Below, piece by piece: positions 15,289 through 62,036 of a stretch of DNA of 64,000 nucleotides. The notes under the pieces are model-generated. The model was not told the DNA's origin, searched no databases, and was given only the letters and a program-made list of their open reading frames with translations. The position numbers and the translations under genes are program-made. This stretch comes from Nereocystis luetkeana. Its lineage: Eukaryota > Sar > Phaeophyceae > Laminariales > Laminariaceae. The first letter of the stretch is position 1. Each line of letters begins with the position of its first letter. The stretch is from assembly GCA_031213475.1 (NCBI GenBank), contig JARUPZ010000030.1:3469371-3533370 (forward strand). The letters are read 5' to 3'.

Positions 15289-15299
15289 GCAGCGGCGAT

Positions 15300-19590: not shown

Positions 19591-19797
19591 AGGAGGAGGA
19601 GGAGGAGGAGGAGGAGGAGGAGGAGGAGGAGGAGGAGGAGGAGGAGGAGGAGGAGGAGGAGGAGGAGGACGAGGAGGAGGAGGAGGAGGAGGAGGAGGAG
19701 GAGGAGGAGGAGGAGGAGGACGAGGAGGACGAGGAGGACGAGGAGGAGGAGGAGGAGGAGGAGGAGGAGGAGGAGGAGGAGGAGGAGGAGGAGGAGG
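19591..19797. repeat. AGG trinucleotide array (~69 units)
   Basis: A near-pure AGG/GGA run of 207 bases is interrupted only by single G-to-C changes that give GAC units near 19,669 and between 19,720 and 19,741. All frames through it are open (polyGly, polyArg and polyGlu/Gly on +; polyPro, polySer and polyLeu on -), so these open frames are artefacts of the repeat. The long purine strand is a candidate for G-quadruplex or triplex formation. Confidence 0.97.
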
Positions 19798-28099: not shown

Positions 28100-28199
28100 A
28101 TGCGCAGATCGATGCGGATCCACGGTATGGTCCGACTGCTGGTCGGCCTCGTCTTCCTCGCCACTCTACCCACGGGGTCAGCGCAACCGAAGGGTGGTG
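28100..28199 (+). CDS. Exon 1: signal peptide
   Basis: It begins MRRSMRIHGMVRLLVGLVFL and continues ATLPTGSA before QPKGG. That is a basic n-region, a leucine/valine core and a small-residue cleavage site after SA. In-frame ATGs occur at 28,100, 28,112 and 28,127; the first gives the longest n-region, but the third is also plausible. The exon ends G|GTAGGT in phase 1, matching the phase of the first cysteine exon 2 kb downstream. The same GTAGGT donor is used by two other exons. A hydrophobic frame just before exon 2 is better explained as that exon's pyrimidine tract. Confidence 0.72.
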
Positions 28200-31100
28200 G
28201 TAGGTCCACGTAGTGACTCAAGTTCGAACACAAGAAGCTGACGAGCTCGCCGACGGCCTCGCAAGATTTATCAAACGCCGCGCATACAGTACACAAATAG
28301 TACAGCAACAATTTTGTGATTGAGGGCCTGAGTATTGTTCGCGGACTCGCACATTATTATTGAAGGAAGAGCTCCGGGTCAGCGTTTTTTCTGTTTTCGA
28401 CACAACAACGACTGGTCGAAACCGTACCACACAAAAGGAGTTCGACGCTCTGCACAGTTATTATGTGGACAGAAAACTACGGGGAACTTTATTTAGCGAA
28501 GGATGCGAGATTGAAGTCGACGGGGCCCTACTCTGAGGAAGGGCGGGAGTAGTATTACGGGGGGCCATAGTTAACAGGACCAAATATTGTTGGTAAAAAT
28601 GGTTAAACATATAGGTTTTTATGTATACCATAGGTCCTGTTAACTATGGTCCCCCGTAATAGTCGATTCCTCGGCCATGGACGCGTGGAAATTTTACAAC
28701 ATAATCGTTTGGGCAACGGCTAGGTTATTTTGGCACGGCATTGGGGGAAAATATGTTTTATTACCGGCATCGTAGTATGAAGCTTATCAGGACAAAATAC
28801 CGAGTATTCAACATTTTAGATTCCCGTTATTTTATCAGGATGTAACATCTACCTGTTTTCGTAAATTTTTCATATCCACACTACGCGGCTCCTGCTCTCG
28901 ATTGACTTTATTTCGCCAACCCTACCCCTTTATACATTTCGTCCACCGCAATATGTTGGATATTCATTGGGTGCCTCGGCCGTGAGAGCAAAGTCGTTAC
29001 TCGAGCCCATTCCAGTATTTGATACATTGTGCCCACCCCTACAGACTATATTTTGTTTGGGTGAACAGTGTAACCGCAGAGTCTGTCCCCGTCGTGTAGG
29101 TTAGCGGTTCTGAACGTGTCCACCGGGAAAAAAATCAGTTTAGGGTGCGGCCTGCGGTCGAGGCCCGGCTGTGACTGCCAGTTGCGGACGCTGTCAAGAA
29201 CGAATGTTCCAATTTTTCTGTGTTGGGTATGTATACTTAAGGTACATGTACATCTTCGCCGGGTATGCGTGGGATGCCGTCATATATTCCGCCTTTATTC
29301 CTGTGAGGCTCACGCCCGGGGGCCTGGCGGTCACGCAGTGCCCCCCTACCGACCCCCTTGCAGGCAGGCGCCACCCGCCTAATTTCCCTGTATTCATTTA
29401 TCGACTCGAAGGTGGCACGAGGGTAGTGCCGGGACACCTCTGGCTCATCTCCTAGGGGGCGGTTGGTGCAAACAGTTGTAGAACACAGTTGCCCGTTATT
29501 TCCTACCTGGTACTCACTAAGGGTTTCTTGGTAATTTTCGTTGGGTTTGATATCCACGCTTTACATTTGTCAGATGAGGACGAATATAGGACCACGTATG
29601 TATGTGTTTGTACTGCAGTGTTGGTTTTGTCGTCTTCAGTTACGTGAATAATACGCACGCTCATGTGCAACGGGTGTATATATCCTCTTCCATTCACTGC
29701 CCAGTACGGTGTCGGCATATGAAAGGCCCGAGGCTACGGTGGCGTGACAAGTGGGACAGTGCGGGCACGCACTCGAGATGTACGGACCGGTAATGCGGCT
29801 ATCAAAATATATTCATATGGTATTGGACGTGTCAAAAAGTGGTTATTACGAGGGCCGACTAAACGCCGCCGGCCGACGAAAAGCCGAGTTCAGTAGGCAC
29901 TGCAGTAACTGTTATTGAGGTCGGTAACTTGCGCGGTGCTGCATATTTCATCTGACTTGAGGCTCGACGGGGCGTATATTGCTGACACGACTACAGCAGG
30001 TCAGTTGATTCGCTTGCATTCACCGTCCGACCACGGAAGGCTAGAGTAGAAGTGGAGTCCAGCCAACTCACCCCTCGATGGACGCGTGAATACGTTCACC
30101 CCTGAGCAGAATGCATGCCCATTACATAGGACCCAAAATAAATCATGCATAATACATCGGTCAGACCTCATGAGGTACCGCGATATCTGCAATCGTCTAA
30201 TCCTGTGTTCCCTTCTCCAACTTTTGTTCGAACTGTCACCGTCCTCCGCGCTGTCCCCTGCAGCTTGCACCAAAGATTCCAATTGCAGCGTTGGTAGCTG
30301 CTGCAAGGCCGACCTGACATGCTCAAGTAAGCCCCGCTGTCGTTGGGTGCGCTGCAAGGGTTTTGCGGACCATGCACCACTGCTAACATTCAAATTTGAT
30401 CCGATTAGTGCTCAATGCTCCGGGTACATCGCAAGTCTACGTATGCATGACGACGATGGTTTGTTTCATTGCCCCCAATGTGTCGGAATTTAGCGATCTG
30501 CCAAACGAAGTACATCAATATATATGCTGCTATGACGGAACAGGCCGTGGTGCACGACATAGAAAACACGCTGTCTTCATTCGCTACAAACATGCAACCG
30601 AACCTACGGTATCCTTCCTTAGAGATCACCCGCTTAGATACTACGCGTAGCCGAAATATGTTTATTAACGCAAGGTTGCAAAACGGAGTTTCTAACAACC
30701 GTTCTCACCACCGATGTTTGTTCGTAAGAATGCGTAACGCGTTTAAGAATGCGTAACGCGTTTAAGAATGCGTAGGGCAAGAAGAGTGTCGGACGATTTG
30801 CCTGTATCTCGCTATTATTATTGCTCTACATTTCACGCATTCTTCTAGCGTTGGATTTTGAAAGATTGATCTCACAGCTGGTGGTCCAACCATAGGTAAA
30901 GTTTTCGGAGTCGAAACCAGAGTACGTGCTGCAATAGTTTAGGGTAGCAGGCTCTGGACAGAGAGTCTTTGCTTCGCAGGCTACGTCACCGGCGGGAGTA
31001 TGTACAGCTTCTGAATATCTGTCTCTGTACCGGTACGGTACGCTTGCTGCGTTCCACAATCCATTGTGTCTTCCTCCCTGTGTCAGGGATAGTTGCGGGT

Positions 31101-34100
31101 ACCATCGCCGGCGGAAGGAGCGCCGACGACCCATGTGAATGCATCTCACAAGTCTACGACACGCCTACTGGACAATGCGGTGAGTTTCCACTTTCGAAGG
31201 TGTTGCGAGTCACCCGCGCCACTAAATCTACGGTGAGATACACATCCATTGCCAGAATTGTACCCTTTTCAGAAAAGAAACACAATCCAGCCCGTGTCAG
31301 GAACACCTTAGTGTTTGCCTACGAACGCGACGCTTTGGTTCAATCATCGCCACGAGCGTAACATTCGAACAGTCGCCCCCGCGCAATTAAAAGGGAACTC
31401 GAGTCTTCGGTCCCTAAACCAGCCAGGGATTGATAAACTGATGCAAATAATGTCTTAGAATACGCGCCACCTGTAGCCCTGTTGTTCTCTTGGCAGCGGG
31501 TGATCGACCGTAGTTCCAGCGGCATGAACTCTAGCGTGGAATTGCATGTGTTGTCTGGAGACGCCTAACAGTCGCGACAGTTGATGCAGCAGTCCTCCTC
31601 GTAGTAGCCCGCACCCATACCTGTATTATCAGCAGTATTTCCCTGACTATCCTGACGCTTACTGCGCAAGTCGAGGCTCCCGACCTGCTAGGGTATCGTG
31701 GAGTACGTTTTTGCCAGGTGACTGCATAGGCTTGCGCTGAAAGCCGTTGAACTATCTAGGTAGTGCTAAGGACGGGAAAAGGGTCCTCATGTCTCAAGTA
31801 GCGCTTGGGGGAGACGATATGCACTATATATACTGCGTGGTCTATACGGGTGCCCATACGCGATGGAAATAACAGTCCGCCCAGCAGAGCGGGTGCGGCA
31901 CTCCGGTGTCTCAAAGTATAATCCCGGTCAGAACTTTACTCTGAACGCCTGCCGTGCTGACAGTGCTGCTGACATGCTAGGTTGAAGCCAAAAGCAGGCC
32001 TAAGCGGCGTAGAGCAAAATGTTTCAGCTATGGAACATCGTCATCTTACGATCCGCGTAGGAATCCCCGTCAGAGACAATGCATTGTAGACACTACGTGG
32101 TAGAGCGATATATCCTTTCGTGAGCAATCAGTGATTTCACCCCGGGTGGCGCTGGCCCCACGAACCCCAGTCACCCTGCAATCAGCCAGTTGGGTTGGGA
32201 TTCCTACCCCGTGAGAGGCCGTTTATTCATGTAGTGTGCTGTGATATATTGGAAACATGTACCAGATTATGTGGTATGAACATCACCAGTACAATAAAAA
32301 CACGTTCAATATATTACGGCTGGGAAAAAAAAAATGAAACACTACTACTGCAGTACTATTAATACTACATTCTATTTCTGCTGCTACGACTACACCTGTA
32401 TTCCTGGCTTTCCCACGTTTACTACATTAAATCCTATCATGTACTCTCTGCAGATGCTACTCATAATATTGCTGCTGTACTGCGACCTGTATGTCACGGC
32501 AAATTTCTCCGTCGATGTTGGCTGCGTTATTTGATGACTGGTATATACAACTGAAACTACAACTACTCATGAACTTACTTCTACCACCCCTACCCTTGTA
32601 AGACACTACTACTATTTCAGCGATCACAATATCTACGACTACGCCTCTGCCGCCCCACCGTGCATTGTTGTTCGACTACACACTGAAATTCATGTTCTTC
32701 TTTACTCCTACCCCCGACGACATGCCGCTCACTGTTCACCCCTCTACCGTTGAATAAACTAGGTTGTACGACTGACAGCCACTGCGAGGGCACCAGATGC
32801 TGCACCCCGAACGGTACATGCTCGAGTGAGTGCTGGGTAGTTCGCTAGCTACTAAGCAACAGCTACGTTACCATCCCGATTCCAGATCCCGATTCCAATG
32901 GAGTAATTCATACGAGCCCGTTTCCTTCACCAGTACACAAACTGTTTTTCCGGGGTATTCAGACTATACCTGTGCGCGTGCATCCGACTCTATGATATTG
33001 GCCTCATATCGTTTGCGCGCCCACCGCGAGTTTCACCAAATATATATTTCCAGCGACTCGGCATGTCGAACTAGTGGTTCCGACACTCGAATGTTGTATT
33101 TCTCTCGCGTACGTCTCGTAGACCACTCTAGGCGGTAGGCAAACAACATGTTGCTGGGTGTCTGGGCCCCATGGACGGGTAAGCATAGTGTGATTAAGTC
33201 TCTCTGAGATGTGACGTTAAACGACCTTGACTTCTGCTTCGACACTTAGAATAGGCAGAACCGCAACCGTGTTCCCTCCGGCGGGGAAAGTCTGAAACGC
33301 GCTTGTTTAACTGCAATACCTTCACGTTTCAGCGAGGGGGGTGGCTACCGTTCTACCCGGCCGAATCGCCTCCGATGCATGCGAATGCACTTCAGGCGAA
33401 ATCACCAAATCATCAGGGAGATGCGGTGAGTCTCAATCCGTGACCGTGGCGCACTCCCAAAATCAACTGTGATCCACCGTCTTTGCTTATGACCGCCTAT
33501 CTATGCCGCATGCTGCATGATGCACGGTGGGTCGAGCCGGAAATTCCGTTGTGGGTGTGCAAGTCGAACATATTTCCCTTTACGTAAGTACTTGTCGTAG
33601 ACCATGCAGTGCTCGGATGGCAGTTTCTATTTCGTACGACACGAGTTTAGTCTACGAAAGCGCTGGACAACAATCCAGGTAATACCGGCCAGACACTACA
33701 GCACGGGTTTGGGCCGCCGGTGTTTATAATTTTTTCTTGTGACGCTACTCATATGTCCACCGACGTGGGTGGCAGTTGCCCCGAATCCTCCAGTCCGTTC
33801 GAGGACATTTGCTGGATAACGCTAGGGGCTACATTATGCGTGTGGCTTAAATACAACAGATTCTTCAATGTTGACCGATTGTGGAAGCTGCATCTATAAA
33901 TTATTGCTCGTCCTCCCAAGCACCCCGGATAGGTTGTATTCCCTGCCTACAGTGTGAGCCATCAACGTCGAAACACCTGATACCTGCAATATGCTGTGCT
34001 CACAGGGAACTATCAACGCAGATGGGCTGGCCTTTTTCACTTACCCAACACGACGTATTCTGTGCTTGTGAGATCACCGCTCTTTCTTGCGGACGTGTCG

Positions 34101-37100
34101 ATAGCAATACACTGAAATATGCTGAAACCTGAGCGGTGCCTAGTCTCACGGGGAATCCCCTCTCTTTGTAGAGGCCGTAGGCCTATTCATTGCGCTTTGA
34201 CCGATCTACCTGTCTCCGTTCCGGTTTGTTCACGTGCGGTCATCGGTGTGCTGACGCCCCGTCCCTTCCACCGCTCTGCCGCGCTTTCCGCCTGTTTCAA
34301 ACAATCCGATTTAGCGTGCAAGAACGCGAAGTTAGACTGTGAGAAAAACAAATGCTGCAGGGCGGACGACTTGTGCTCGAGTGAGTAATGGGGTGTCCTT
34401 CCTTTCAACGAGTGAACACCTAGTGCTGCCGAGTCGGGGCTCAAATTAGAGGTATTTAACCTCTCGCAGGTGGAACAGGTACGTCGACTGCACGATACCA
34501 TTATGCAGTATACGTTTAACACAAGGCTCTTCACGCCGCTATCGACGATACTATCCTAGAGGAAGTTTGGGTTAGAACAATTTACATTAGGGGTGTTGGG
34601 GTGCTTGTGAAGCGTTGTCATGATTGGGCAGAAACGAAATCAGTCTGGAGGGAGACAAACAATCCTAGAAGCTCCGTAAACGTGCACTATATCGGTTCCG
34701 CTTCATCACTTTCGACGTGCCGTAGTGACTGACATATGATGTTTCCATTTATTTCGCACGTGTCCTATAACGTGCTTGCTATTTCTCTCCACCTCCTTCA
34801 TATCAGCTCGGGACCAGGCATCTGTCTTGGCCGGCACCGGTGCGGCAGATGCATGCGAGTGCGCCTCTGGACAATTCAACGCCGTTACCGGAAAGTGCGG
34901 TAAGTCGTTTCCGATCGGTCACATTTCGGGAACCACGTTCCGCTGGCGCAAATTTGTTTTGGCCACCAGTGTTTACCGTGGAATTCATACAACTTCGAGC
35001 CACAATTGACCACGGGAATTGTATCGAATATCCAGACCGGCCAGCACCCGAACCATTTACCGCTAGACCTTCGACGGTACGATGTTGGTGCTGGCCGACC
35101 TGATCCGGGGTTCTCCCCCCCGGACATCATACTGAATCCCTTTTCTACCTGGGTATTCGCCATGCCAAGAACGCCCCCCGAAAAGAAAAACCAGAAATTT
35201 CTAAACTTCCTATCGAGCCTGTCGCAAGATGTTCGGAAGAATCCGCTTAGGCACGTATTTTTGAAGGGCGTAGTCAAATTTTTGTTGGCGCTAGAAGCCA
35301 GACGTTTAAAGAGACAGTTGTTGTTGTGTCGCTCGGACCCTAGAGTAGATGAATGTGAACCCTGGCAGACACGTCACTCGACTCTCTCATAAATAAGGCT
35401 TTCTGTATCTTCCGAGCCTTCGAGAAAAAAGACCGTCAGTGTCGACGGTGTGGTCGATCAAACGTGCACATCACAACCATCCGGTTCGTTGTGTCGTATT
35501 CCACGTGACTTGGACTCGTTGGTCAATCAATCTCGAGCATAAGGCTGGCTTGGTCTTATATGCTCCGGAACGGTAGTGATTCGATGAAGAGCGGATCAAC
35601 TGTATGGAGCACTCCTCGCGGTGTCCGAAGCAAGAAGAAAATGATTCCCGTTTTCCATATAAACCCATCAAGCATGCTAGATGAAGAGGTACCGTAATCG
35701 CTGTCATCGCGCTTTGAAGCTACGCTTGCCTAGTGTCGGAGCATACCATGCTCCATTGTGGCCTTCGTACGTACGATACCGGCATGTTGCTCAGGACGCC
35801 TTCGGAACGTATTTCAGAGTGGGGAAAGACCCGAATATCAAATGAGGCGACATCACACTGCACACAAGCACGCGCATCCCTCTGAAGCCTCAAGACGACG
35901 GCAATAGCATCAGCATAGCCAGACAATGCCTATCGAATGCCCACCAAACCTGCAATACTTCGAGGAGAATAGCAAGCGGAAAAAGGACTGCTGCCCCATA
36001 GGTTGCCACGACCCAACCCCGGTGTCGTAAGGTGGTCAAACGGGTAACGTCCTAACTGGTATTCAGGAGTGAACGTCGTCAGTGCATCAAGGGGCTGACG
36101 AATGACTGCAACAATCCACAGAGGAATAATATGGTGGCATTGACTGGGCAGACATTTCTACCTGGGGCACCAGCTATAGACAGGCTTCGCTATGCAGTAC
36201 TGGGGTAGCCAATTTTCGCTTCAATGACCTACCGTTTACTGTACTTGATATTGAATGGAGTATGCAGTAAGCCTAACTTCTTCCTCCAGTACCCTTTACG
36301 TTTGACGGAAAAGGTTGACGACGAAGTTGTACTTTGCTGGATGCGGGTTGGGCCGTTAACCAAACGCAGACGTAAGTCTGCGTTCGATCCAAGATGATCC
36401 CAGCACAACAAAGAGGGTGAATCTACGCCTGCAATTGTCCTCACAGCCGACGTCAGCGCTTGCACCCTTGGAGCATATGAACTACCACAGCACGTAGGTT
36501 CCTTGTACAAAGAACGGTAGTATCATCGATCGGTGACGACTACACCATATCGAACAAATAATTGGAAAGAGACAGGGAAGAAACACCCCAGGACGATCCT
36601 ACACCAGACAGATGGGACCACTGACCGGGTAGAAAGCCAACGTGGGGTGATACTTCAGCACCCGGTCGAGAATTGGAGACGGTCGGCCTTCGAAATGACG
36701 TTTAGCAAGTATCAGCGCTTGAGATCGTCAGATCACAAAATACCTGGGATCGCCGGCGGCCATTGCTTTGAATGTTAGGAGCACCCTGCTGTCGTCAGAG
36801 CATCCCCTCTTGGGATAAATAGAGCATCATCACCTGGGTTTGCTGGAGATGTATCTCCCTGGGTCGGTGAAACGTCGTCGTCTGGGATTGTCGGAGTATC
36901 GCCTTACCCTGGACACGTACAGTCCGGGATGGCCGGAGAATCATCCGCTCCAATCATCACCGCCGCACCATCTCCTGGGGTGGCCTGAGCTTATCGTCCG
37001 AGATCGACGAAGCATCACCACCGGAAATAGCATGAGCATCCCTGCTTGAGGTCGCCGGGACATCATTGCCTAATATCACTAGAGCATCACCACCTGGTGG

Positions 37101-52100: not shown

Positions 52101-55100
52101 AGCATCAAAACCACATTCTTCTACCTTTGTGCCAGGTGCTGCACTGCTTAATTCCTTCTCCCTCTCAAACGAATCAGGTGAAATACATCCCCGCTCGCCG
52201 GCGTGATGTGCAACCTTATAGAGACGACAACCCCCGAGAACTGTTAGTCCACAAAGGCTTCGAGCAAGACTTTGCGCTTATCGCCGACAAATGTATTCGG
52301 GGCAGCTGCTTCCGTAAAGCGTTGCGCGTCACAAGAACATTCCCCGTCATGTTGTGGTTTATAATCACAAGGATCGATCACTGTCAATCAGGCCAGAGAT
52401 GTTGTCTGTTCTTCTCACAGTGAGCCATCAATGTGGAGAAAACGGACCGCCGATTAGATGTCCACCCTTTGTAACACCCGTAATTTCTCGTTTTCTGATG
52501 AATTGCGGGTGACGCCTGTTTCTAGTAGACGTTTGTGTCGTATTGTCGTACCAGGTATAGCTACAAACCATCGACTCCTACGTAGCGCCAATCGTCGGTC
52601 TCGCTTACCTTTGCAGCTATTGGGATCTTTTTTTCATGGCGTCTTCTTCGATACACATGTCTGTGTTCTTGTGTTCGCGAACGAAGTCAGATTTTTGTTG
52701 CCACTAAGCGCCTGTTTGTTTTTCACCACCTTTCGTGTGCCTCACCACCGGTTCCCAAAAATTCGAAATAGTGTGCGGCGACGACAATCACTGCCCTGAG
52801 GGCATGTGCTGCAAAGGAGACGGAAAATGTTCAGGTCAGTTCTTGGCCTCCAGCACGGTATCAGTGAGGGCTCGTGGTATGAAAACAGCTCCAGCCCCGG
52901 GGTCCGTGTCGTCTTTATACGTAAGCATCCATACTACATAAAATTTCTTCGCGCGAGGCGAAGTATGGGTGCACACGCCCACGATATTCGGCCCTATGTG
53001 CACCACACCAAATGACACCAACGTAACGTCAAGGTTATCCCTCTTGGCGGGGTCGACATCACTCACACCTTTCGAAACTCGTGAGGCAGTAGAGTTTGGT
53101 TTGGTGCTCCCCGATAAAAATGTCATTGACGTGTGGTGGGAAGACGTTGACGCTTCGATCATGTCACAGATAGACATCAACGCTCAAATGGCTGCTTATA
53201 TCGCGCATGCACTTGTTTTCGTCCTTCTCGCCGCCACATCAGCTCGAGCCAAAGCCTCGGTCACGGCCGGTTTTATTACAGCCGACGTATGCGAATGTGC
53301 TTCTGGCGCTACCGCCCCCGATGCGCCCCCCGACAAAGTAAGATGCGGTGAGTAATCTCCGTTAGGCGTCGCATATATGAAGGGCTCCGCTATCCCTTGC
53401 CGCGACCTCGGATGTCTAGTGCTGTGCATGGAACGGCGGATGTTTTGGAACAATGGTTTTATGTGTAGGTACAAGATTTGATCAAATTCATTTTTCAAGC
53501 AGACGTGTGAAAACATAGCTCCTGGGCCATATGCAGGATAACATCCTTTTTGTTGAGTACGTATGGCAGTTCCTTGTTTGACACTATACAGTGCTGCATA
53601 AAGTCTACCAGTCCGCTTGTGGGATTCGTCCCCAAAAATAGCGCAACTCCCAGCCTACTAAAATCGCCCGGCCAACGCCAAGCGCTAGACGGTATAGGTA
53701 CAGCCCCCGTTTAACATGTATTGATATTTGATAACTGTAATGTAAAAGGCGTTGCGCCTCATTGTACTCCTAACTCGAGTCGTCACGTATTAGCAGTTTA
53801 CGCCTCATCGTGCCGTTAAGCTATATATACCTGCTAGATATATTTTAGCTCATGAGTTACGATCAACATGTTTTACTTCTGTGCTCTACCTGGGACGGTA
53901 TAGACGGGATTTGTTACGGACGGCACCATTCACATAGTAAGAGCAGGGAGGGGGGAGACAACCTGGCTTCGAGACCCTGGGGTCCGAGTAGTTTCCGTGT
54001 ACGAAAGACGAGGATTCTGGTTGGGACAAATTCAGGGCCAATACTCATATTGATGTTGTCGAAATGAAACATTCAGATACGGGTGCGAGTTCTCTTCGCC
54101 CGCGCGGCCCTGCTTTGCCGGACACCCTAAAATATTCCCTCAGAGAGGTACACATTCTGTGATCTGCTTTGCGTGAGCCGACCTGTATTCCTACAGTGGT
54201 ATCAGGTGCATATATACCGAGTGCATACTCGTAAGGGCTTTTTCTTGCATGAAATGAATTGACTAGCGGAAAGCGCGAGAGCGTGATTTAGCTACATTCG
54301 ATGAAAATCGACGAGAAGTTGGAATGCTGAACCCTATGCGCGACAAAAAATAAAGGCAAGTACCGGGGGGGAGAAGGGTATACACCTGTGACCACGGCTT
54401 GTCCAGAAGGTCGTCGAGGGTAAAACCTCCTACGAGATAGGCTGGAAAGTGAAAGCTATGATGAATATATATATATATATATACATATACGGTCTAGCAG
54501 CTGTGCCGCCGCGATTCCACTGCCACCACGTCTGCCTAATGCGGTCTGCCACCTATTATCACCAATTTCGTACTTAGGATGTAACGACGACATCCAGTGC
54601 CCGGAAAACAGATGCTGCATGGAGGACGGCAGATGCTCAGGTGCGTGGTATGCGCTTGCACGAAACGTGAACGTAAAGGGTGTGGGGGGGTCGACAGCAG
54701 TGACAGTGCTGCGGCCTGATATACATACCTGCCTGGGCAATGCGAAACGTCTTAGAGTAGGCTGAACGTTTTAACTCAAAACGTTATACTCACTGACAGA
54801 GGTCTTCACACGAAGACCGCGTCAACAGTTGTGTATCAATTTTTTCCCGGGTACAATGCACGGTGTACCTATGGGCATTAACGGCCCAAAAGGCGTAGGT
54901 ATGCCCGAATATTAATACTACAACTACAACTATTCTATACTATACTAACTACTTCAGACTTCCATACCTGCGAGTCAAAAACAGCGTCAAAACAACCGAA
55001 AGGCCAAATAACCAAAATCATCACTATTATTAGTAGGAATAACGTCTCTGTATTTACTGATGTACAGGTATACGTACGGTTGGGGCACGATGAAAAAATT

Positions 55101-58100
55101 ATCTGCATCTAATTGGCATGAAAACTTTCTGATGACTGTCAAAAATGCACTCACGGCAACAGCACAGCCGACTCGTGGCCACAGCAGGAGAAGTCCGCAG
55201 TGACATCACTATTCACATCAATAGGCAGCAACAGGTCTACATACGATTGGGCACATCATGAAACAAATATCTTTGCCTGCCCTGAAAAGTGTTTCTCTAC
55301 GTTTAAATTAATGGCTGCCAAAATCAATATATTCCACTCATGGTTACAGCGGCAGACTCGTGGCAACGGCCGCACAGTGCTACCTACTACCAATGGTACT
55401 CCTACTACTCCTACTACTCCTGCCACTACTACTACTACTACTACTGCCGTAATAGTAGCAGTAGTATTTGATGTAGCAGTATATATAGTTAGAGTAGAAT
55501 GCAGTACGATAGCTGATATAAATGAAATCCTACTGGGAAAAGAGGTAGTCGGGGAGACGGACGAACCAAAATATCTATCCGTCTCGAATCGCGAAGAATA
55601 GTTTTTTTCAGGTTTGGGAGGATACCGTATGACGCCGCCGGCAAGCTCTTGCCCCCTAGAGCATAGATCCTGCTGATTTCATCAAGCCCTCCACGCTGCC
55701 GACATTGCTGCTGTTGAAGGGTGATAGCTGCGCGTTCATACTACACCGAGAAGAGGGTTGTACTTGGGTTGGGGGTTTGGATCGTATAACAAATCATATT
55801 ACGAGTATACTGCTGTACGTCGTAGGTCGGAAATGCTGCTGGCCCATGTACATATTTTGGGAAAAAACGTATTCCACGCTGGTCGTATTTTGGCATAGAT
55901 AGTGTAACATCGATAGGTGTTTTTTTCTCTAATCATATTATAATATTACCGAAATAAAGAGTACATATTCAATTCGTAGTTCTAAATGCGTCTATTACTT
56001 GGTATTTTTAATTATAGTACGACCACGAGTATAGTGAGTCTTCACTACTTCGTAACCGTCGTGCGTACAAGCGCTACACATACATGTATGTCAAGAAACC
56101 CCGCCGCAGACCACCGCTGCTGCTGTGGGTCACCAATGGGAATGGCAATCCACTAGATCTGTCAATTTCGTCACTCCCACTCTTCCAGTATAATTGTACT
56201 TATAATTGTAGACTGTAAAAGAGTCTGGTGCCCCATCACTGCTTTTTAGTAGTATATTAATAGCAGCACGAAAACGTCTAATTCGCATCAACTTAAAGAC
56301 GAAAAGTAGTTCGCTTTGGCTTTTCCGATCATCTGTGTAGTACAGACATGTATGTTCGTCTCTCTCGATCACTTTGTTGACCTCCGATTTAAGAAACAAA
56401 GAGCTGTGGGATCAAAATGCGCCACTCGCTAGCCTGCCTAAAAACAATAACGAACATCACCTCCTCCTGCGAAACTGGGCCACCCTCTCCAATATTATTG
56501 TGTGTGCATCCTGCATTTTTCAAATATCAAGAGCAGAAGAGGCCAATAACACGTACGATAGTGAGACTCACCAACAAACACGTACACGTACTCATGTGCT
56601 GGTACGTCAAGATCTCCTGCAACATTTTTGCAGGGAGTATTTCAAACATTTTTCAGTGTCTTGGTGTGCCTGTCACGTTCAAACTGTCGAGCCGTGCGGG
56701 TTTTTCTTAGAGGCGAGGGGAGACATTCTGCGATATATATACAGATATCGGCAAACAAACGTGCTTTCCCCTAAATATCACCGCCGCATGGACCAGGCAA
56801 ACCACAACCTATTGATGGCTATTGGGGGGTTGGGCGTCCTGCTCCCGCCGTGCTATCGTACTGCTGCACTGGCACATACCCCTTGTTCCGTAGTATAGTA
56901 GCCGTTTTTGCAATGAGGCACGAGCGCGTGAAGCGCGAGACTTTTGTTCTTGGTTTTCCAAGGATAAAAGGCGGACGTTCAGTCTGAGAGCCAAACCCGG
57001 TGCCGTCTGTGCCGGTGCCCACTGGTATCTCTCCACACTTGCACCAACTCTAACTGCGACTTCACGAAACAGAAGCTAACGTAACTGAGAACAGCCCTCG
57101 AATGCATTTAATCGAGGACCACAACAAAAAAGTAATTATAACTCGAAGCATGACAGTCTGTCTCCTGAACGATCAGTTCATGTTTGTTTACAGCTTCTTT
57201 AGAAACAAAACAATTTGCTGGGTTTTTCGGAGTGGTTGTCGGAAGTTAGTTGGGTTGATATCTACGTTCCCCCTGAGGTCAGTGTGTAGGTTTTTCCATC
57301 GCACTGTTTCCAGTTATTTTTGCGCTCGCCGATCGGGCTGATGTCTGACATTTCCAGTTCCTTCGGGCATGTGGAAATAGTTTTCCCTCCCGCAAGCTGC
57401 CTGGGCACTGGGCACAAAAAATGTCACACGTATCAGGTGCCAGCATTATAGCTGCCACCACTGGTCCACTGGCTGCAGTGAACATCTCACATATATATAT
57501 ACGTGTGATGTCCTCCTCTCTTACTGCTACTCGCGGTCAAGTTGCTCGTGTTGCTGCTGCTTTGCTTGGCTTGCGTTCTGAAAGGGTTTCAGTGAGATGT
57601 ATACATCTATTATGGCGTTATTTTAGCGGGATCTAACATACTGGCATAGCTAGATTAGAAATTAACCACTCTTCGATTCTCGGCCTATATTGAAAGATCG
57701 CCCCCCAAAGGTTTTCCAAAAGATTGCAAACTTACAGGGAAATTCAACTCCGCAGTCTCCATGAGTAGGCTTAGCAGTCTGGGAGAAGGGATCTTTAGGG
57801 GTGTGTTTAACTTGAAAAATGTGTAGCGTGGTCTGCACTTACTTCGGAATCGTCGTCCGCATCTTAAATCTGAGAAAGTTCCTGGTTCGATGCAAACTCG
57901 GCGTAGCCTCGTTTATGGCGAGTTTTGGCCCGTTTCGGCTGCGGTTTGGGGTCAGGGTTAGGGTTAGGGCTAGGGTTAGGGTTAGAGTCAGAGGTTGGGC
58001 TGGATCTTCGCCCGTGCTATGATCCCAACAGGAACCATAACATCCGAACAGCCTACCAACCTAAAGATCCCTTCTCCCAGATTGTTAAAGGTCCTCGTCT

Positions 58101-61100
58101 CCATCGTAACTGCTATATTATAGACAAAGACAGAATGTCGAAGGAAAGTAATCCGACCGACTCGTGTAATCGGAGAAATTGGTCGGTCGACCTAAGTAGA
58201 CGCAAAATTATACTACTTTGTTTGGCCGGATGTATATTGTTACGAGTAGATTGAAGACGTATCCATGCATGTAAACACACGTACCTTCTAATCAGACTGC
58301 TGTGTCTATTTTATAAAATGATTATATTTAATGTTTTTAGCACTACTACGCGTTTAGGTTTTGATTTGGTAAGAACGATGGTTCCTATGTTTCGAGTGAA
58401 CCAATGAGGAAGCGGCGGTGGTGCCGCGCTCTTGAAGCAATCAGTGTATGCATTCCGAGCGTTCCCTTGCAGTATGCATTGATCGGTCACACCGAGCACT
58501 ACGTCTTGCAGCATAATATAGCAGGTCCAACCTGCCCTGCACCTCACGTGCCGGCCAGACAGAGGCTTTCATTAATTTTTGTGTTTTTGTGCGCGTTAAC
58601 AGTAAGGTTTGTCAGCACGACGGCGACATTGCTTTTCATGGGCGGACGTTGCAAACAAGCACAGCAAAAACATAATCTTAGGGAGCACGTCGAGAAGGGT
58701 TGGCACTTTGGGAGCGAGGGTCTTTAGCGGTGATTTTGACTTGAAAAGTTCGTAGCGCGCTTTGCACTTCAGAATCGTCGTCCACTACTAAGATTTATGG
58801 CCAGGTTTGGCCCGTTTGGGCTGCGGTTTGAGGTCATTGTTAAGGCTACGGTTAGGGTTAGGGTGAGGGTTAGGGTTCGGGGTTAAGTTGGAGCTTCTTC
58901 CGTACCTTGATCCCAACAGGACACAAAATACCTGAACAGCCTACCAACCTGAATACAATTGTTTCCAGATCGTAATGGGGCCTCATAACGTTAACAACAA
59001 CGTAGAGGATGCTGGTTGTGGCGTCACGGCAAGCGTCATGAGTACCAAAAAAATAAGGCCTGCTCACCACAAGCTATTTCATACCCCCGTACACTCCCTG
59101 GAAGTACGATCGGGGGTGCTGTCGGCCTCCGTTTATCTACAATACGGGCATGCGCGAAGCCGCCGGCACACGAAAGGCATGTTGACAGCAACCGCCACCT
59201 CACCACCAACTTCACGACAACTACGACGACCACAATAACCCCCACCACCACCACCTCAAACCGCCAACACCAGGATCAAGCTTCGCGTCTAGCCCCGTTT
59301 CGCAGTCGACCCCCCCTTCTCTCTTCTTCTGTCGACGCTGGGTGCGTGCGTGTAGGCGGAGAGTTACTGTTCCGATGTTGTAGGTCTAGGTCAGCGACTC
59401 GAAGAGCAGAAATACTTGAATACCAGCACGACGACCACCACCACCCACCTCCTGAACTACCGGCACTCGGCCTCGCGTTTACCACGGTCTCGGGTGGACC
59501 CCCCTTCCATCCCACTTTGACCAACGCCGGGTGCGTGTGGTGGGTACTTGTGGGTGGGGTTACTACTGTTCCGCTGCTCCGTTGATCGCTCGGGCGACTA
59601 CCATTCTGCTGTCCAGCTGCTAGCTTGAAAGACCGGAAGATTATATTTGCTTGGAGTCAATATTAAATTGTGGTCGGACGTCGGCCGGGGGCCTACCACA
59701 AATTCATGTTACAACGATTTCGGAAGAAAACGCTGTTTGGTTTTGTACCCCGGGTTAATTACGGATTGGCGTTCGCTTGTATCATATATGGCAGTTCTGG
59801 AATGCACCTCCACATCACGCAACAGACAGCCCCCAACGTCAACGAAATACAGGCGCGATCGTCGTCGATGGAGGCCTTCGTTTGTCGAGCAAAGTGTAAC
59901 GAGGGTTGACGGCGACACCGTGCGGCGTCCGGTGCTCTGCATCGCTCTCGCACGATATGTGCCATTTCACACAATGTCTTAGATATCTACCCATTACAGA
60001 ATCGGTTAAACTCATCTCTCCCCCCCCCTCCCCCCCCGCTCTGTTCTTACGCTTTAAGCAAGGGATAAGGAGACCGTTTCTCCTGGAGTTATCGCTGATG
60101 ACAAATGCGAGTGCTCGAGCCTTTCGTACGACTCTTCTCGCCAAGTGTGTGGTGAGAGAATTAATCATTTCCTCTCTTAGAAATGTCTGTTTTTAATTGC
60201 ACAGTATGTTACGCAAAATGCCCTCAGCTGCTCTAAAATATATTTGAAACTGTTTGACCATATATATATATATATGTTGATGACTGTAGTTCACTGGGTT
60301 AGGTTCTAATATAACTCGTACCTGTGCTCGGGAACTCTTTGAGTAGTGTTGGGCATCTAGAAGTCCAGATCACCGGTGTGCATGTAACTGACCAACATGG
60401 TGGATGTGGGGAACGCATGTTACGATTTTTATATCGCAAGCACGACGCAGGGCGTAAGGTCTGTCCTGATCGAACGTGACATATCACATGGTGGCATGGT
60501 CGCTGATCTGTTCAGGCTCTACGCGCTGCCTTGAAGATATAACAGTGTATCGAAAGGACAGAGTAGCTTGCACTTGATGCGGGAGAGACATAAAATTGGT
60601 TCCATGCCGTCTTGCTCCAGGTCTATGAATCAGCCGCTGGACTGAGGTTGGGTTTTGGTCGGATATTATTGCCCCTTCCCTCGTACATCGTTTCAGGTTG
60701 CACAAAAACAAAAGATTGCGCAACTGATGCTGGAGAGGTCTGCTCCGAGACCACTCTTACCTGCGTGCTCGTCAAGAGTTCCAGGGCCGCCGGTAGGTTG
60801 TGGTTGATGTAAACGTACGTATGTTTCTCGTCCTTTGCTTGCCCGACCGGAGCCGTAATCGATTGCACATAACCGCGAGGTCATAAATGGGGCAGGTAAC
60901 AATGTTCGAATGCATCTCATACGTTTTGAAAGCAAACGTGACCCCCGTGGTTAGAAAATAGGCACACCCGCTGGAGTGCAAGTACCGCGGGATTATTGTG
61001 TACACCCAAAGCGTGATAGTCGATCGCGTCGATCTCACAGCACTATCCACACCTCGCTTTCTGTTTGTCCTTCGAAATGCGCGGATCAACGGCGGGCTGC

Positions 61101-62036
61101 CTCTCGAAATAGGTGATCCGCACATGACCGGTTTTTCCGGACAAAAATTCACCTTTTACGGGGGACGACGGTACATGGTATGCACTAATCTCCGACCCCC
61201 CGTCTCTGCGCGTCAACATACGTGTCACCGCCCCGGTTCCATCCCTGATGGAAACCACATACATTACCGGATTCGTTCTGCTTACCACTGACGACGTCGG
61301 ACTTGACCACATCATCGTCGTAACAGCTAAAAACCCTCACGGTGTGGAGACCACCTGCTCCATGGGAATATCTCCTTGTCTCGCGGATGGCTTACTGACC
61401 GTGCTGCTTGACGGGAAAGAGGCTCTCGCGGCGCCGGGGACGGTCTCGCTGGCTTCGGGTATAAAAATATATCCGCGGTTAACACTCCCGGCGAGTGCAG
61501 GTCATTCGGCTTCGCGGCGTATTGAGAGACTAGAAAGCAACAGCACGCAGCGTACTGGGCGAGAAACGAGAAGGAGGACGTCTAGGGCAGTCGGAACCTA
61601 AGAGCGCCGCTGAGCATGGGAGAGTGGGTACCTCAATACCCCACCTACCGCGGCAAACATGGCTGAATGCACTTATTTCATCGAGCGCTCGGCGGAAGTG
61701 GCCGGCGGACTGTTCGCCCATCAGTCGAAGCATTCGATCTTTTGGATCGTTACCCCAGCGGCAAATATTCGTATGAGCCACGGCAAGCAATATGAGCTGG
61801 TTAAGCGAGACACGACCGATACGATTGGCCTCCCAGGTAACGTGAATCGGCAGATGAACCTTGCTGTCGGACAAGGCTACGTCAGCCGCGACGCCAAGGG
61901 TGTCCTCGGCGAAACGGTAGTCCCCATGCGGGATGCCGACGGGAATAAACTCATGCATTGCGTGAGATGCATCCGCGGGGTGAAGGCAGACTGTAAGCTT
62001 CGGGCACGCACACTCGAAAACCGACTCTACTGCTAG
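28100..62036 (+). CDS. Secreted multi-repeat cysteine-rich protein gene, 25 exons
   Basis: This is a reconstruction of one gene from 25 exon-like segments, each bounded by AG and GT signals. Every internal junction is phase 1, so the reading frame is kept from the first ATG for 648 codons up to the terminal domain. The predicted product has a signal peptide, eleven 52-residue repeats with 8 cysteines each (88 in all) and a variant half repeat with 4 cysteines. It ends with a domain starting GDPHMTGF. Disulfide-rich repeats after a signal peptide imply an extracellular or cell-wall protein; the function is unknown. A exons resemble small knottin or Dickkopf-type cysteine motifs, but I cannot assign a family. 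The 3' domain is broken, so the locus may be a pseudogene, a recently truncated gene, or one distorted by sequence errors. The split into two or more genes within the ~5-kb introns cannot be excluded. Confidence 0.8.
28200..30263 (+). other. Intron 1 (2,064 bases)
   Basis: The intron runs from GTAGGT to a long pyrimidine tract and CCCCTGCAG. It contains an inverted-repeat element at 28,554-28,660. Otherwise no structure was recognised. Short open frames inside it on both strands are not supported. Confidence 0.55.
28554..28660. mobile_element. 107-bp inverted-repeat element (MITE), copy 1
   Basis: The left arm ATTACGGGGGGCCATAGTTA is mirrored by the right end, and the pairing runs for about 28 bases per arm with one mismatch (GGG-GCC against GGG-ACC). 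The interior is about 50 bases and AT-rich. Flanks show a direct AGT, or alternatively TA if the arms begin TTACGG, so the target duplication is ambiguous. A diverged relative lies at 48,317-48,415. It sits in intron 1 of the main gene. Confidence 0.85.
30264..30326 (+). CDS. Exon 2: A module 1
   Basis: It encodes CTKDSNCSVGSCCKADLTCS in phase 1-1. The acceptor is CCCCTGCAG and the donor GTAAGC. Upstream the frame stays open through the pyrimidine tract and even looks like a signal peptide, but the AG lies exactly where all other A exons start. The AKAD-type CC-KAD core is shared with modules 6 and 7. Confidence 0.85.
30726..30774. repeat. 19-bp tandem repeat, 2.6 copies
   Basis: The unit AAGAATGCGTAACGCGTTT occurs twice in full and once in part, perfectly conserved. 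Each contains the near-palindrome AACGCGTT. It lies in the intron between exons A1 and B1. Confidence 0.9.
31087..31179 (+). CDS. Exon 3: B module 1
   Basis: It encodes a 31-residue half repeat with DDPCECISQVYDTPTGQCG. The acceptor is CCTGTGTCAG and the donor G|GTGAGT. It has proline in place of the usual alanine before CEC. The intron separating it from A1 is 760 bases, close to the 734 of unit 6 and longer than in the other repeats. Confidence 0.88.
31180..32762 (+). other. Intron B1-A2 (1,583 bases)
   Basis: No gene or repeat array is recognised. The right half (about 32,330-32,600) is rich in ACTACTACTGC-type simple sequence and pyrimidines. Confidence 0.5.
32763..32825 (+). CDS. Exon 4: A module 2
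   Basis: It encodes CTTDSHCEGTRCCTPNGTCS. The acceptor is AATAAACTAG and the donor A|GTGAGTGCTGGG. It belongs to the X subtype (DSHC, CCTP), shared with modules 4 and 9. Confidence 0.9.
33333..33425 (+). CDS. Exon 5: B module 2
   Basis: It encodes RGVATVLPGRIASDACEC and then TSGEITKSSGRC. X subtype, with the ASDACEC core. The sequence before the acceptor (ACTGCAATACCTTCACGTTTCAG type) is shared with B4 and, less closely, B9. Confidence 0.9.
34315..34380 (+). CDS. Exon 6: A module 3
   Basis: It encodes CKNAKLDCEKNKCC then RADDLCS. It is 66 bases, one codon longer than all other A exons of the array, with six rather than five residues between the first two cysteines. The acceptor is CCGATTTAG and the donor A|GTGAGT. 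Confidence 0.86.
34807..34899 (+). CDS. Exon 7: B module 3
   Basis: It encodes RDQASVLAGTGAADACEC and ASGQFNAVTGKC. Y subtype (R-x-x-ASVLAG), close to B5 and B10, with the shared acceptor form ATATCAG|CTCGGG. The donor is G|GTAAGT. Confidence 0.9.
34900..39874 (+). other. Long intron B3-A4 (4,975 bases)
   Basis: It is six to ten times the usual length. It holds the 24-bp minisatellite (about 36,740-37,280) and unassigned DNA on both sides. Frames of 128-130 codons at 34,885-35,392 and 38,587-38,973 lack motifs. No extra A or B module was found in it on the + strand. Confidence 0.55.
36740..37280. repeat. 24-bp minisatellite (GAGCATCATCACCTGG core)
   Basis: The consensus unit reads roughly GAGCATCATCACCTGGGATC then GCCG. 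The clearest units are at about 36,820-36,900, and degenerate ones run to 37,280. Outlying copies sit near 37,553 and 37,647. The unit is 8 codons long, but stop codons are frequent, so it is not read as coding. A probable cause of this intron's expansion. Confidence 0.75.
39875..39937 (+). CDS. Exon 8: A module 4
   Basis: It encodes CVDDSHCPGSKCCTPASTCS, X subtype. The acceptor is AAAATACTAG|GTTG, like A2; the donor is A|GTGAGTGCTG. Confidence 0.9.
40442..40534 (+). CDS. Exon 9: B module 4
   Basis: It encodes KPGGSVAAGKIPTDVCEC and GSGAIIPSTGKC. The exon ends in A rather than G before GTGAGT, so the junction residue with A5 is lysine instead of the usual glycine. Acceptor region GACTGCAATACATCCACG is shared with B2 and B9. 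Confidence 0.9.
41384..41446 (+). CDS. Exon 10: A module 5
   Basis: It encodes CIDDADCEGDKCCGANGVCS. The acceptor is ATGAAATTAG and the donor C|GTGAGTGTTGG. Shares the CCG core with A8. Confidence 0.9.
41783..41875 (+). CDS. Exon 11: B module 5
   Basis: It encodes RDKASVLTGKQANAACEC and AEGRYDANTNRC, Y subtype. The usual aspartate before ACEC is alanine here. The A-to-B intron before it is the shortest of the array (336 bases). Confidence 0.9.
42659..42721 (+). CDS. Exon 12: A module 6
   Basis: It encodes CTADSHCADDTCCKADFTCS. Acceptor ATGAACAG, donor A|GTGAGTGTTG. Its CCKAD core is nearest to module 1, which supports a block duplication. Confidence 0.9.
43456..43551 (+). CDS. Exon 13: B module 6
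   Basis: It encodes VDGASILSGKGPAEDACEC and ITGEYDEAKKKC. It is one codon longer than the 93-base standard, before CEC. It contains a run of nine A bases (AAG/AAA lysines) close to the donor G|GTAGGT, a place where sequence errors would shift the frame. Confidence 0.9.
44360..44422 (+). CDS. Exon 14: A module 7
   Basis: It encodes CTKNSDCEGDTCCKADQTCS. Acceptor AATCCTTAG, donor G|GTGAGA. It is the only A module with a TT lead and the same CCKAD core as modules 1 and 6. Confidence 0.9.
44975..45067 (+). CDS. Exon 15: B module 7
   Basis: It encodes KDVSSVLPAGIASDACEC and STNLYSPEAGEC. X subtype by the ASDACEC core, nearly matching B2 and B9 at nucleotide level over GCCTCCGATGCATGCGAATG. The last base is C, giving leucine at the junction with A8. 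Confidence 0.9.
46003..46065 (+). CDS. Exon 16: A module 8
   Basis: It encodes CRNDGDCAGDTCCGDNNTCS. The intron end GGTTCCCAACAATTTCGAAT-AG is nearly identical to that of A10, so the two exons were copied together with flanking intron. Confidence 0.9.
46460..46567 (+). CDS. Exon 17: B module 8 (long)
   Basis: It encodes EDEGSVAAGADVTDECEC then IRNGGYQPGRTPGTGVC. It is 108 bases, with five extra residues in the last inter-cysteine loop; all cysteines are kept. The acceptor is CCACCAG and the donor G|GTGAGT. Confidence 0.9.
47046..47108 (+). CDS. Exon 18: A module 9
   Basis: It encodes CTDASHCPQNKCCTKTGSCS, X subtype. The acceptor is CACTCAAAG, the only one of the A set with AAAG. The donor is A|GTAAGT. 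The upstream CCCCCCGCCGTCCATTGTGT resembles that before A4. Confidence 0.88.
47675..47767 (+). CDS. Exon 19: B module 9
   Basis: It encodes NDLDSVVLGGKASDACEC and VTKAFNPDTGRC, X subtype. Acceptor region GACTGCACTGCGTCCACA then TTTCAG matches B2 and B4. Confidence 0.9.
48317..48415. mobile_element. 99-bp inverted-repeat element (MITE), copy 2
   Basis: Arms of about 24 bases begin CGGGGGACCATA on both strands and differ at about four positions. The arm sequence is clearly related to that of the element at 28,554-28,660 (GGGG-CCATAGTTAACAGGACC type). The interior is AT-rich. No target-site duplication is evident. Confidence 0.75.
48891..48915. repeat. Perfect 12-bp-arm hairpin
   Basis: GCCATTGGCTAC and its exact reverse complement are separated by a single T. 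The following bases (48,916-48,921) repeat ACAGTAGG-like sequence, so the region looks like a recent fold-back duplication. It lies just upstream of the copia relic. Confidence 0.85.
49020..49830 (+). mobile_element. Ty1/copia retrotransposon relic (RT to RNase H, broken)
   Basis: Fragments in order match copia-type Pol. VHVDGIFDL (49,020) is a decayed YVDD box of reverse transcriptase. CDHFGRDLNQIVPGEDLW follows at about 49,074, then a VHWKA/VRR linker near 49,300-49,350. STLEAE with a stop in place of the next tyrosine (TAA at 49,527) and VALADVIAE are the RNase H motif. KRIDVRRHFFRELVGRKD precedes VPSNFQHADFPSKA (49,752-49,793), the typical C-terminal end. Several frameshifts and stops separate these pieces, so the copy is dead. 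A TGTTGGAAAC at 49,854 could start the 3' LTR, but no matching 5' LTR was found. Motif recognition is from memory. Confidence 0.8.
49854..52060 (+). other. 3' part of the intron insertion, possible LTR region
   Basis: No protein motif occurs after the copia Pol end. The stretch is T-rich on the + strand and contains two TACCTGGTA-type words (50,179 on + and 52,075 on -). It may hold a 3' LTR and other inserted DNA; the boundaries are not visible. Confidence 0.3.
50275..50365 (+). other. tRNA-like / SINE-like segment
   Basis: GGTGGTTGAAGTGGTTAACC resembles a pol III A box and D arm. CTGGGTTCGAGTTCCCAG resembles a B box and T arm, but with an 8-base loop instead of 7. Acceptor arms CCGGTC / GGTCGG pair with two wobbles. 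The anticodon arm cannot be drawn with a 7-base loop. An AT-rich tail follows. It is more likely a tRNA-derived SINE head or a decayed tRNA than a functional tRNA. Confidence 0.35.
52772..52834 (+). CDS. Exon 20: A module 10
   Basis: It encodes CGDDNHCPEGMCCKGDGKCS. The acceptor is TTCGAAATAG, nearly the same as A8. The donor is the weaker G|GTCAGT, unique in the array. Confidence 0.9.
53243..53347 (+). CDS. Exon 21: B module 10 (long)
   Basis: It encodes RAKASVTAGFITADVCEC then ASGATAPDAPPDKVRC. It is 105 bases, with four extra residues (proline-rich) in the last loop. The open frame before it (MAAYIAHALVFVLLAATS) looks like a signal peptide, but it is the pyrimidine tract of the CACATCAG acceptor. 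Confidence 0.88.
53348..54577 (+). other. Intron B10-A11 (1,230 bases)
   Basis: It contains an AT dinucleotide run at about 54,464-54,482 and no other structure that I can support. Confidence 0.5.
54578..54640 (+). CDS. Exon 22: A module 11
   Basis: It encodes CNDDIQCPENRCCMEDGRCS. The acceptor is CGTACTTAG and the donor G|GTGCGT, the only GTGCGT in the set. Its partner B exon lies 5.4 kb downstream. Confidence 0.85.
55060..55370. repeat. Two diverged tandem copies of a ~160-bp unit
   Basis: About 55,060-55,190 and 55,228-55,365 share ACA(G)GTATACGTACGG-TGGG / ACATACGATTGGG, then GCAC-ATGAAA, then GACTCGTGGC-AC near the end. The divergence is considerable. The order of landmarks is the same. 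Confidence 0.5.
55397..55446. repeat. ACT/CTA trinucleotide run
   Basis: This is a 50-base run of ACT units with CCT and GCC interruptions, inside a 133-codon frame that reads polythreonine. The frame is taken to be an artefact of the repeat. Confidence 0.85.
57778..58081. mobile_element. ~304-bp inverted-repeat element carrying TTAGGG repeats, copy 1
   Basis: The left end starts CTGGGAGAAGGGATCTTTAG and is mirrored exactly at the right end (to 58,080). The perfect arm is 22 bases when the flanking T/A pair is included. Inside, 57,952-57,988 is a run of TTAGGG-type units with one CTAGGG and one TCAGGG variant. A frame through it is of no significance. No target-site duplication is obvious. 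A related, more decayed copy lies at about 58,702-58,976. Confidence 0.82.
57952..57988 (+). repeat. Interstitial TTAGGG-type run
   Basis: Five to six TTAGGG-like units in G-rich-strand orientation on +. They lie inside the inverted-repeat element, not at a chromosome end. Confidence 0.88.
58702..58976. mobile_element. TTAGGG-bearing element, copy 2 (decayed)
   Basis: It is collinear with copy 1. Shared landmarks are GGTCTTTAG, GACTTGAAAAG, GTAGCG-G--TGCACTT, GAATCGTCGTCC, GGCCCGTTTGGGCTGCGGTT, then a TTAGGG run (58,838-58,885), TGATCCCAACAGGA and GAACAGCCTACCAACCT. The outer arms are degenerate (TTTGGGAGCGAGGGTCTTTA on the left). Confidence 0.75.
59236..59590. repeat. Two diverged tandem copies rich in ACC
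   Basis: About 59,236-59,400 and 59,428-59,590 share ACCACCACC, then CCTCGCGT-TA, GACCCCCCTTC, ACGC(T/C)GGGTGCGTG, and GTTACTGTTCCG / GTTACTACTGTTCCG. Frames of up to 189 codons over it are threonine/proline-rich consequences of the repeat. Confidence 0.55.
60059..60151 (+). CDS. Exon 23: B module 11
   Basis: It encodes RDKETVSPGVIADDKCEC and SSLSYDSSRQVC, the most diverged B module. The acceptor is GCTTTAAG after a long C/T tract; the donor is G|GTGAGA. It matches in phase, length (93) and cysteine spacing. Assignment as partner of A11 is by order only. Confidence 0.82.
60697..60792 (+). CDS. Exon 24: variant A module 12
   Basis: It encodes CTKTKDCATDAGEVC then SETTLTCVLVKSSRAA. It starts like an A module (TTTCAG|GTTGC), but the CC pair is replaced by a single cysteine after seven residues, and the exon runs on to 96 bases. 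It ends G|GTAGGT in phase 1. It probably acts as linker and cap between the array and the terminal domain. Confidence 0.82.
61113..62036 (+). pseudogene. Exon 25: terminal GDPH domain, broken
   Basis: The acceptor CTCGAAATAG|GT matches the form of A8 and A10 and keeps phase 1, giving GGDPHMTGFSGQKFTFYG. Alternative acceptor at 61,040 also keeps frame. The domain then continues in other frames: WYALISDPPSLRVNI, TYITGFVLLTTDDVGLDHII, CLADGLLTVLLDGKE, APGTVSLASG, GECRSFGF, MGEWV, then MAECTYFIERS to a stop at 62,034. Frame changes occur at the G5 run 61,160-61,164, near 61,461-61,475, and near 61,655. In-frame stops are TGA 61,523 and TAG 61,583. The layout GDP-x-x-x-G-x-x-G-x-x-F followed by SDP-x-L-x-VN resembles von Willebrand D and plant root-cap domains. 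The read frame as found would end at 61,291. Confidence 0.72.

Follow-up and report, generated by a model that had tools for sequence, protein, structure and literature searches.

A stretch of 64,000 nucleotides from the brown alga Nereocystis luetkeana (contig JARUPZ010000030.1, here C30, positions 3469371-3533370; referred to as the window) raises the question of what kind of protein is encoded by a gene in which a small cysteine-rich repeat is divided between two exons. The gene, designated G2, lies on the + strand and comprises a signal exon, eleven pairs of an A and a B exon (30264-60151), a hinge exon and a terminal exon. The initial annotation had read the locus as 23 small exons with phase 1-1 borders that alternate between types A and B, and 11 A exons, 11 B exons and an A-like exon at 60697-60792 are indeed present. 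The same holds for its description of an eight-cysteine repeat with a conserved intron, since a phase-1 intron occurred in every copy that was read. The eleven-unit, two-exon repeat gene is therefore confirmed as real.

Ten of the A exons measure 63 nt and one 66 nt, while the B exons range from 93 to 108 nt. When the window was scanned for a pattern of AG, cysteine frame and GT, the + strand gave 11 A and 11 B exons and the - strand none of either type; 40 windows simulated with an order-2 Markov model gave 0 A and 0 B exons in the same scan. Spliced together, the first 24 exons encode 648 residues without a stop. In the four paralogues that make up the cluster (G1-G4, see below) all donors were GT (72/72), all acceptors AG (71/71) and all introns of phase 1 (72/72), a uniformity which is partly by construction because exons were picked for having such borders. 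Independent support for the exons comes from the alignment of G1 with G2, which covers mainly exons: 1445 of 1945 exon bases align and 19 of 24 exons are touched, compared with only 624 of the 27,988 intron bases whose distance to an exon exceeds 60 bp.

The spacing proposed by the initial annotation for the repeat unit, C-x5-C-x4-CC-x5-C-x17-C-x-C-x11-C, was found exactly in 7 of the 11 units; in the other four one loop is longer, and the units measure 52-57 residues. Exon A provides five cysteines (1-5) and exon B three (6-8). For comparison 43 units, one of them from Undaria, were used. Each has eight cysteines, and all cysteines as well as the glutamate of a C-E-C motif are invariant, which is again partly by construction because the units were gathered by cysteine patterns. 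The order C-C-CC-C-C with knottin-like loop lengths, followed by a C-x-C...C tail, is found in 43/43 units, with a long loop of 15-18 residues ahead of Cys 6. We infer that the unit is a six-cysteine knot whose sixth cysteine lies on a separate exon and to which a loop between Cys 7 and Cys 8 has been added.

The absence of a matching named domain family, also claimed at the outset, was borne out by Pfam, which returned no family for the repeat array at E<=5 or at E<=10, and a search of NCBIfam with the array found no family. Several known modules were considered and rejected. WAP, EGF and EB-type modules have different cysteine spacings, and the Pfam result speaks against them as well. Shuffled exons of leucine-rich repeats (LRR; 72 bp, phase 2) were dismissed, as the exons of the window are mostly 63 and 93 nt and of phase 1, and Pfam found no LRR. 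The Colipase/Dickkopf/prokineticin fold requires ten cysteines, arranged in five disulfides in Dkk domains (PMC6078440), and eight were counted in 43/43 units. The five-unit profile also matched a flagellin (E 0.086), which was put down to chance.

When the spliced array was compared with 5.8 billion proteins, none of the 7998 candidates that were scored reached E<=0.1. A profile of five-unit stretches was run against the same proteins, and of 4150 candidates with a suitable length one (P0010) reached E<=0.001; this search was not exhaustive, since P0016 and P0025, which came from another search, also have unit-like stretches. That the profile retrieved a single protein suggests that gene prediction probably misses the repeat. 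A literature search, mostly without subscription papers, found no description of the repeat or of brown-algal VWD domains. The repeat is real and conserved, and represents a new type within known kinds of protein, namely disulfide-rich repeat proteins and extracellular GDPH-VWD proteins.

All exons of the window gene can be placed on the + strand. Exon 1 (28100-28199) contains the start codon and the signal peptide MRRSMRIHGMVRLLVGLVFLATLPTGSAQPKGG, judged as such by eye, and ends in a phase-1 donor; in the three paralogues the signal exons show 66-81% identity. The A and B exons were located by splice resolution and the pattern scan, with comparison of the units for the longer loops. Unit 1 is formed by 30264-30326 (A) and 31087-31179 (B), unit 2 by 32763-32825 and 33333-33425, and unit 3 by 34315-34380, with one additional residue in the first loop, and 34807-34899. 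Units 4 and 5 occupy 39875-39937 and 40442-40534, and 41384-41446 and 41783-41875, respectively. In unit 6 (42659-42721 and 43456-43551) the B exon is one residue longer. Unit 7 is encoded by 44360-44422 and 44975-45067, and unit 8 by 46003-46065 and 46460-46567, the last loop of which is extended by five residues. Unit 9 (47046-47108 and 47675-47767) is followed by unit 10 (52772-52834 and 53243-53347), where the last loop has four extra residues, and by unit 11 (54578-54640 and 60059-60151). A11 and B11 are separated by an intron of 5.4 kb, which contains short interstitial TTAGGG repeats at 57958-57969 and 58852-58863. About 100 bp of another intron (28558-28657) recur in inverted orientation with 76% identity in a further one (48316-48415) and are perhaps part of a dispersed mobile element.

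Downstream of the array lies the hinge exon (60697-60792), the twelfth of the A-like exons, which has four cysteines here but six in the majority of the family members in which a hinge was detected. In the wider family the hinge is a six-cysteine frame, C-x5-C-xn-CC-x5-C-xn-C, placed directly before GDPH in 28 of the 32 proteins with at least 40 residues ahead of this motif; three of the four exceptions look like intron read-through and one is without a hinge. Of 15 loci in the genome, 11 yielded a hinge exon, with six cysteines at seven of them and with four at the four cluster genes. The latter all lack one cysteine of the CC pair together with the last cysteine (4/4 genes). Their joint absence is a hint, though only a hint, that the two might be partners or belong to one network. 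The hinge may be compared with the unit itself: local alignment of the two profiles gave a score of 20.75 (E 7.6e-05, probability 62), while full shuffles reached at most 17.5 and shuffles that kept the cysteine columns at most 15.3 (40 of each kind).

The terminal exon (61113-62036) encodes GDPH and a VWD-like domain, and is broken in the window copy by frame changes and in-frame stops. In intact relatives structure models predict a VWD beta-sandwich fold with GDPH at its start. The terminal domain assigned to this gene by the initial annotation is thus present, with a predicted fold, but not intact. The domain is encoded at about 100 places in the 465-Mb assembly (1987 contigs) that was searched. 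GDPH stands near the domain start at 15/15 genome loci. Of 120 database proteins listed from 202 matches, 48 have residues upstream that can be read, and 47 of these carry GDPH; the other 72 begin after GDPH or fail the pattern. Five weak profile matches to the VWD starts of FCGBP were obtained (single stretches, E 0.4-33). Relatives of the domain were searched for in prokaryote genomes and none was found; P0085, a close relative labelled as a Hyphomicrobiales metagenome bin, is probably algal contamination. A viral origin was considered and rejected, as no relative of the terminal domain was confirmed in viral contigs, where the unit itself is not searchable, and the P0010 model had no Foldseek match at E<=0.001 among viral models. 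In the large brown-algal family varied N-terminal modules (CAP, LRR, LNR and weakly EGF-like) are joined to the same hinge and GDPH-VWD exon. The terminal-domain family is a module-swapping system wider than the repeat gene.

Together with the window gene, G2, three paralogues form a tandem cluster of four genes in the same orientation, of which G1 has 11 units, G2 11, G3 5 and G4 5. G1, G3 and G4 each possess a signal exon, units, a hinge and an open terminal exon with intact frames, and G1 reads through to give 944 residues; the start codon of G4 was taken as the first Met of its signal exon. A genome-wide search with the unit yielded 56 matches at E<=10, of which 45 fall on C30; the other 11, on C4, C8, C23 and C25, lie within about 21 kb of terminal-domain matches. 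Counted by pattern in the stretches read, locus L036 has at least three units, L035 three, L047 five and L034 one. In Undaria, the annotated protein P0010 comprises a single full A+B unit in spliced form as well as hinge and terminal domain. P0025, a frame of 405 residues on a contig of 1796 bases, encodes A+B, hinge and terminal domain without a change of frame and may therefore reflect a spliced transcript.

It had been proposed that any of these exons can be duplicated or skipped. Phase 1 does keep the frame, but the duplicating unit is the pair: at L047 a block of about 1.44 kb consisting of A, intron, B and intron is repeated in tandem with 94.7% identity over 3347 bp, and three of the five units encoded there are distinguished by no more than one or two residues, the remaining two being close as well. 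Because A carries five cysteines and B three, a lone exon, or the skipping of one, would leave an unpaired cysteine. Pairing of A with B thus appears to be required, although the symmetric phase permits insertion. A and B alternate at the loci read in the genome, leaving aside eight B-like rows of a broad exon scan of the cluster, one of them inside a G1 intron, which were dropped as chance or low-complexity. Two Undaria models, P0010 (B-B-A-B) and P0016 (A-A-B-B), would fit free shuffling if they were right. Free shuffling was rejected since the presumed counterpart, L036, reads A-B-A-B-A-B, its first pair having been found only with a looser pattern, so that the models more likely miss small exons. 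In a tree of the units (52 columns, many forks open) those of G1 and G2 pair by position in 7 of 11 cases (2, 5, 6, 7, 8, 9 and 10), which points to little reshuffling since that duplication; positions 3 and 11 share a small clade, position 4 is not resolved by the tree and unit 1 is unpaired.

The units are under purifying selection on average. The ratio of nonsynonymous to synonymous substitution rates (dN/dS) was 0.51 for the units of G1 and G2 (bootstrap 0.41-0.64) and 0.50 for those of G3 and G4 (0.36-0.71), with single units ranging from 0.30 to 0.91 at wide intervals; the terminal domains of G1 and G3 gave 0.30. Against G3, units 1-4 of the window gene gave 0.50 and those of G1 0.49, so no relaxation is seen in the window copy. 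The terminal exons of G3 and G4 (C30:3585254-3586569 and 3625556-3626872, outside the window) show a synonymous rate (dS) of 0.06 as against 0.52 in the units. They contain an 87% identical patch between stretches of about 65-72%, and were probably subject to recent gene conversion confined to the region of the VWD exon.

What has happened to the terminal exon of the window gene? Counted from the G of GDPH, its spliced frame stops after 59 residues. Those pieces of the exon that remain open have a dN/dS of 0.31 relative to G1, and any loss must therefore be recent, unless the assembly is in error. Because P0003, a related intact protein encoded elsewhere, has a similar upstream intron, the defect is probably a loss specific to the lineage of the window gene or an assembly error. 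The window product would accordingly be a bare array, or the gene would be early in decay, or the assembly would be wrong at this point.

We give about an even chance to the view that the gene belongs to a brown-algal secreted family and encodes a matrix or adhesive protein of repeated knottin-like modules. In this view the protein consists of a signal peptide, an array of eight-cysteine modules (eleven here) and a cysteine-rich hinge, to which intact members add a GDPH-VWD domain at the C-terminus. Disulfides 1-4, 2-5 and 3-6 would form an inhibitor cystine knot, with 7-8 as a fourth bond, and the modules may constitute a stiff, protease-resistant string of beads acting by multivalency in the extracellular matrix, in mucilage, in surface adhesion or in the binding of microbes there. 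Array length changes by duplication of the genomic A+B block. In animals the GDPH of VWD domains undergoes autocatalytic cleavage at the bond between Asp and Pro; exchange of Asp for Ala or Asn, or of His for Asn, abolishes the cleavage, and it depends on a disulfide whether the parts stay joined (PMC10880436). The algal domain might cleave itself at Asp-Pro in the same way, and the hinge might then decide whether the parts remain connected. A matrix or adhesive role is rated likeliest, and defence second, because GDPH is conserved and diatom vWD/GDPH proteins are described as adhesive (PMC7335047, PMC8027222).

Several observations weigh against this interpretation. For the unit there were five PDB profile matches at E<=10, and the first four, which we take to be knottins, reached E 0.15-0.65, below significance; in the only structure model that contains a unit most of it has a pLDDT <50 and the knot is not modelled. 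The full-length alignment of unit and hinge is weaker than the local one (probability 6.7, E 0.0015). As regards the terminal domain, neither of two models, one of them that of P0010, had a Foldseek match in the PDB at E<=0.001, the domain of G1 matched 0 Pfam families at E<=10, and VWD, as well as C8 and TIL, is absent from the 25 listed of the 29 Pfam families that were matched by 113 members at E<=1. Because the Pfam VWD profile is unmatched we speak of a VWD-like fold and not of a member of Pfam VWD. The likeness of diatom and brown-algal GDPH proteins is one of description. Moreover, the biofilm-forming benthic diatom Nitzschia inconspicua is reported without the GDPH pattern (PMC8329260), so adhesion does not need GDPH. 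The joins of the window exons were read from genomic DNA alone, with no transcript seen, and the homologous blocks of the terminal exon lie in alternating frames with in-frame stops.

The last two points are also those on which other readings can be built. That the segments are merely exon-like, through chance or faulty assembly, might be argued from the lack of a transcript, but none of the 40 simulated windows produced such exons, paralogues and loci on four other contigs carry them, and P0010 contains a spliced A+B unit; we regard this reading as already refuted, with next to no probability left to it. Matters are different for the terminal exon, whose broken frames, taken together with the intact P0003, make it a serious possibility, somewhat short of an even chance, that the window copy is a decaying pseudogene whose perfect repeat exons are left over from a function lost only recently, with the three neighbours as the active genes. 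The other 24 exons contain no disabling change, however, and the selection on units 1-4 equals that in G1.

A role in defence or recognition, in which the repeats would serve as binding modules that vary (as protease inhibitors, antimicrobials or receptor-like parts) and owe their diversity to gain and loss of exon pairs, like the LRR exons of ROCO and NB-ARC-TPR genes, appears unlikely. It would agree with the knottin-like frame, with copy numbers of 3 to 11 and ongoing duplication, with the CAP and LRR modules carried by two proteins each among the 113 relatives, and with the LRR exon shuffling reported for brown algae (PMC11378527). The selection on the units is nevertheless purifying and not diversifying on average, and the pairing of G1 and G2 units by position leaves little room for reshuffling. 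More doubtful still is a release device, in which the GDPH bond would break by itself, so that 5-11 knottin-like modules come free as a soluble string or an activated Asp end is left behind, able to attach to matrix glycans, the window gene having lost its VWD domain while its array was kept under constraint. Release of the module string is suggested because all four cluster genes lack not only one CC cysteine of the hinge but also the cysteine next to GDPH, both of which are present in most family members with a recognised hinge.

Elsewhere in the window a CAG-rich 71-bp tandem (15147-15312) and an (AGG)69 array (19591-19797) were noted, and a search for tRNA genes and Rfam families across the window found none.

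How does the family of a probable matrix or adhesive protein compare with known systems? Brown algae evolved multicellularity and an extracellular matrix separately from animals, and to our knowledge few of their matrix proteins have been characterised. A GDPH-VWD family with varied modules at about 100 genome places would provide a concrete set of proteins for adhesion, mucilage or defence. It shares GDPH with the vWD/GDPH proteins of diatoms, such as those of Seminavis robusta and the diatom adhesive trail proteins, and a motif whose domain has been called diatom-specific (PMC7335047) would thereby be extended to the brown algae. In contrast to the diatom proteins, however, the brown-algal GDPH sits behind a cysteine-rich hinge and knottin-like repeats. 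The animal VWD proteins FCGBP, MUC2, MUC5AC, MUC4 and RGMB have the same predicted fold with GDPH at the domain start (PMC10880436), but the algal protein has a single VWD-like domain, with helices that were taken for an insert, and differs by the Pfam results given above.

The array has its own parallels. SCREPs are likewise secreted proteins with tandem disulfide-rich repeats, multivalency being proposed to give them high avidity (PMC6262176), and the window gene, with a signal peptide (by eye) and 11 tandem cysteine-rich repeats, resembles them in this layout. The tandem-repeat toxins in the abstract of that paper are mostly two-domain spider peptides, and the word "alga" is absent from the main text (PMC6262176). 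In brown-algal ROCO and NB-ARC-TPR genes, too, repeats are encoded by small exons that share one phase and have been duplicated into arrays (PMC11378527). Their LRR exons, however, measure 72 bp, are of phase 2 and encode one repeat each. ROCO and NB-ARC-TPR proteins are also intracellular. Knottins, or inhibitor cystine knots, share with the unit the order C-C-CC-C-C and short loops, and are its best, though weak, PDB profile matches; the unit differs from them by the long loop before Cys 6, two extra cysteines, the split into two exons and the arrangement in arrays. The two-exon knottin-like repeat offers a clean natural case of a domain built from two half-domain exons.
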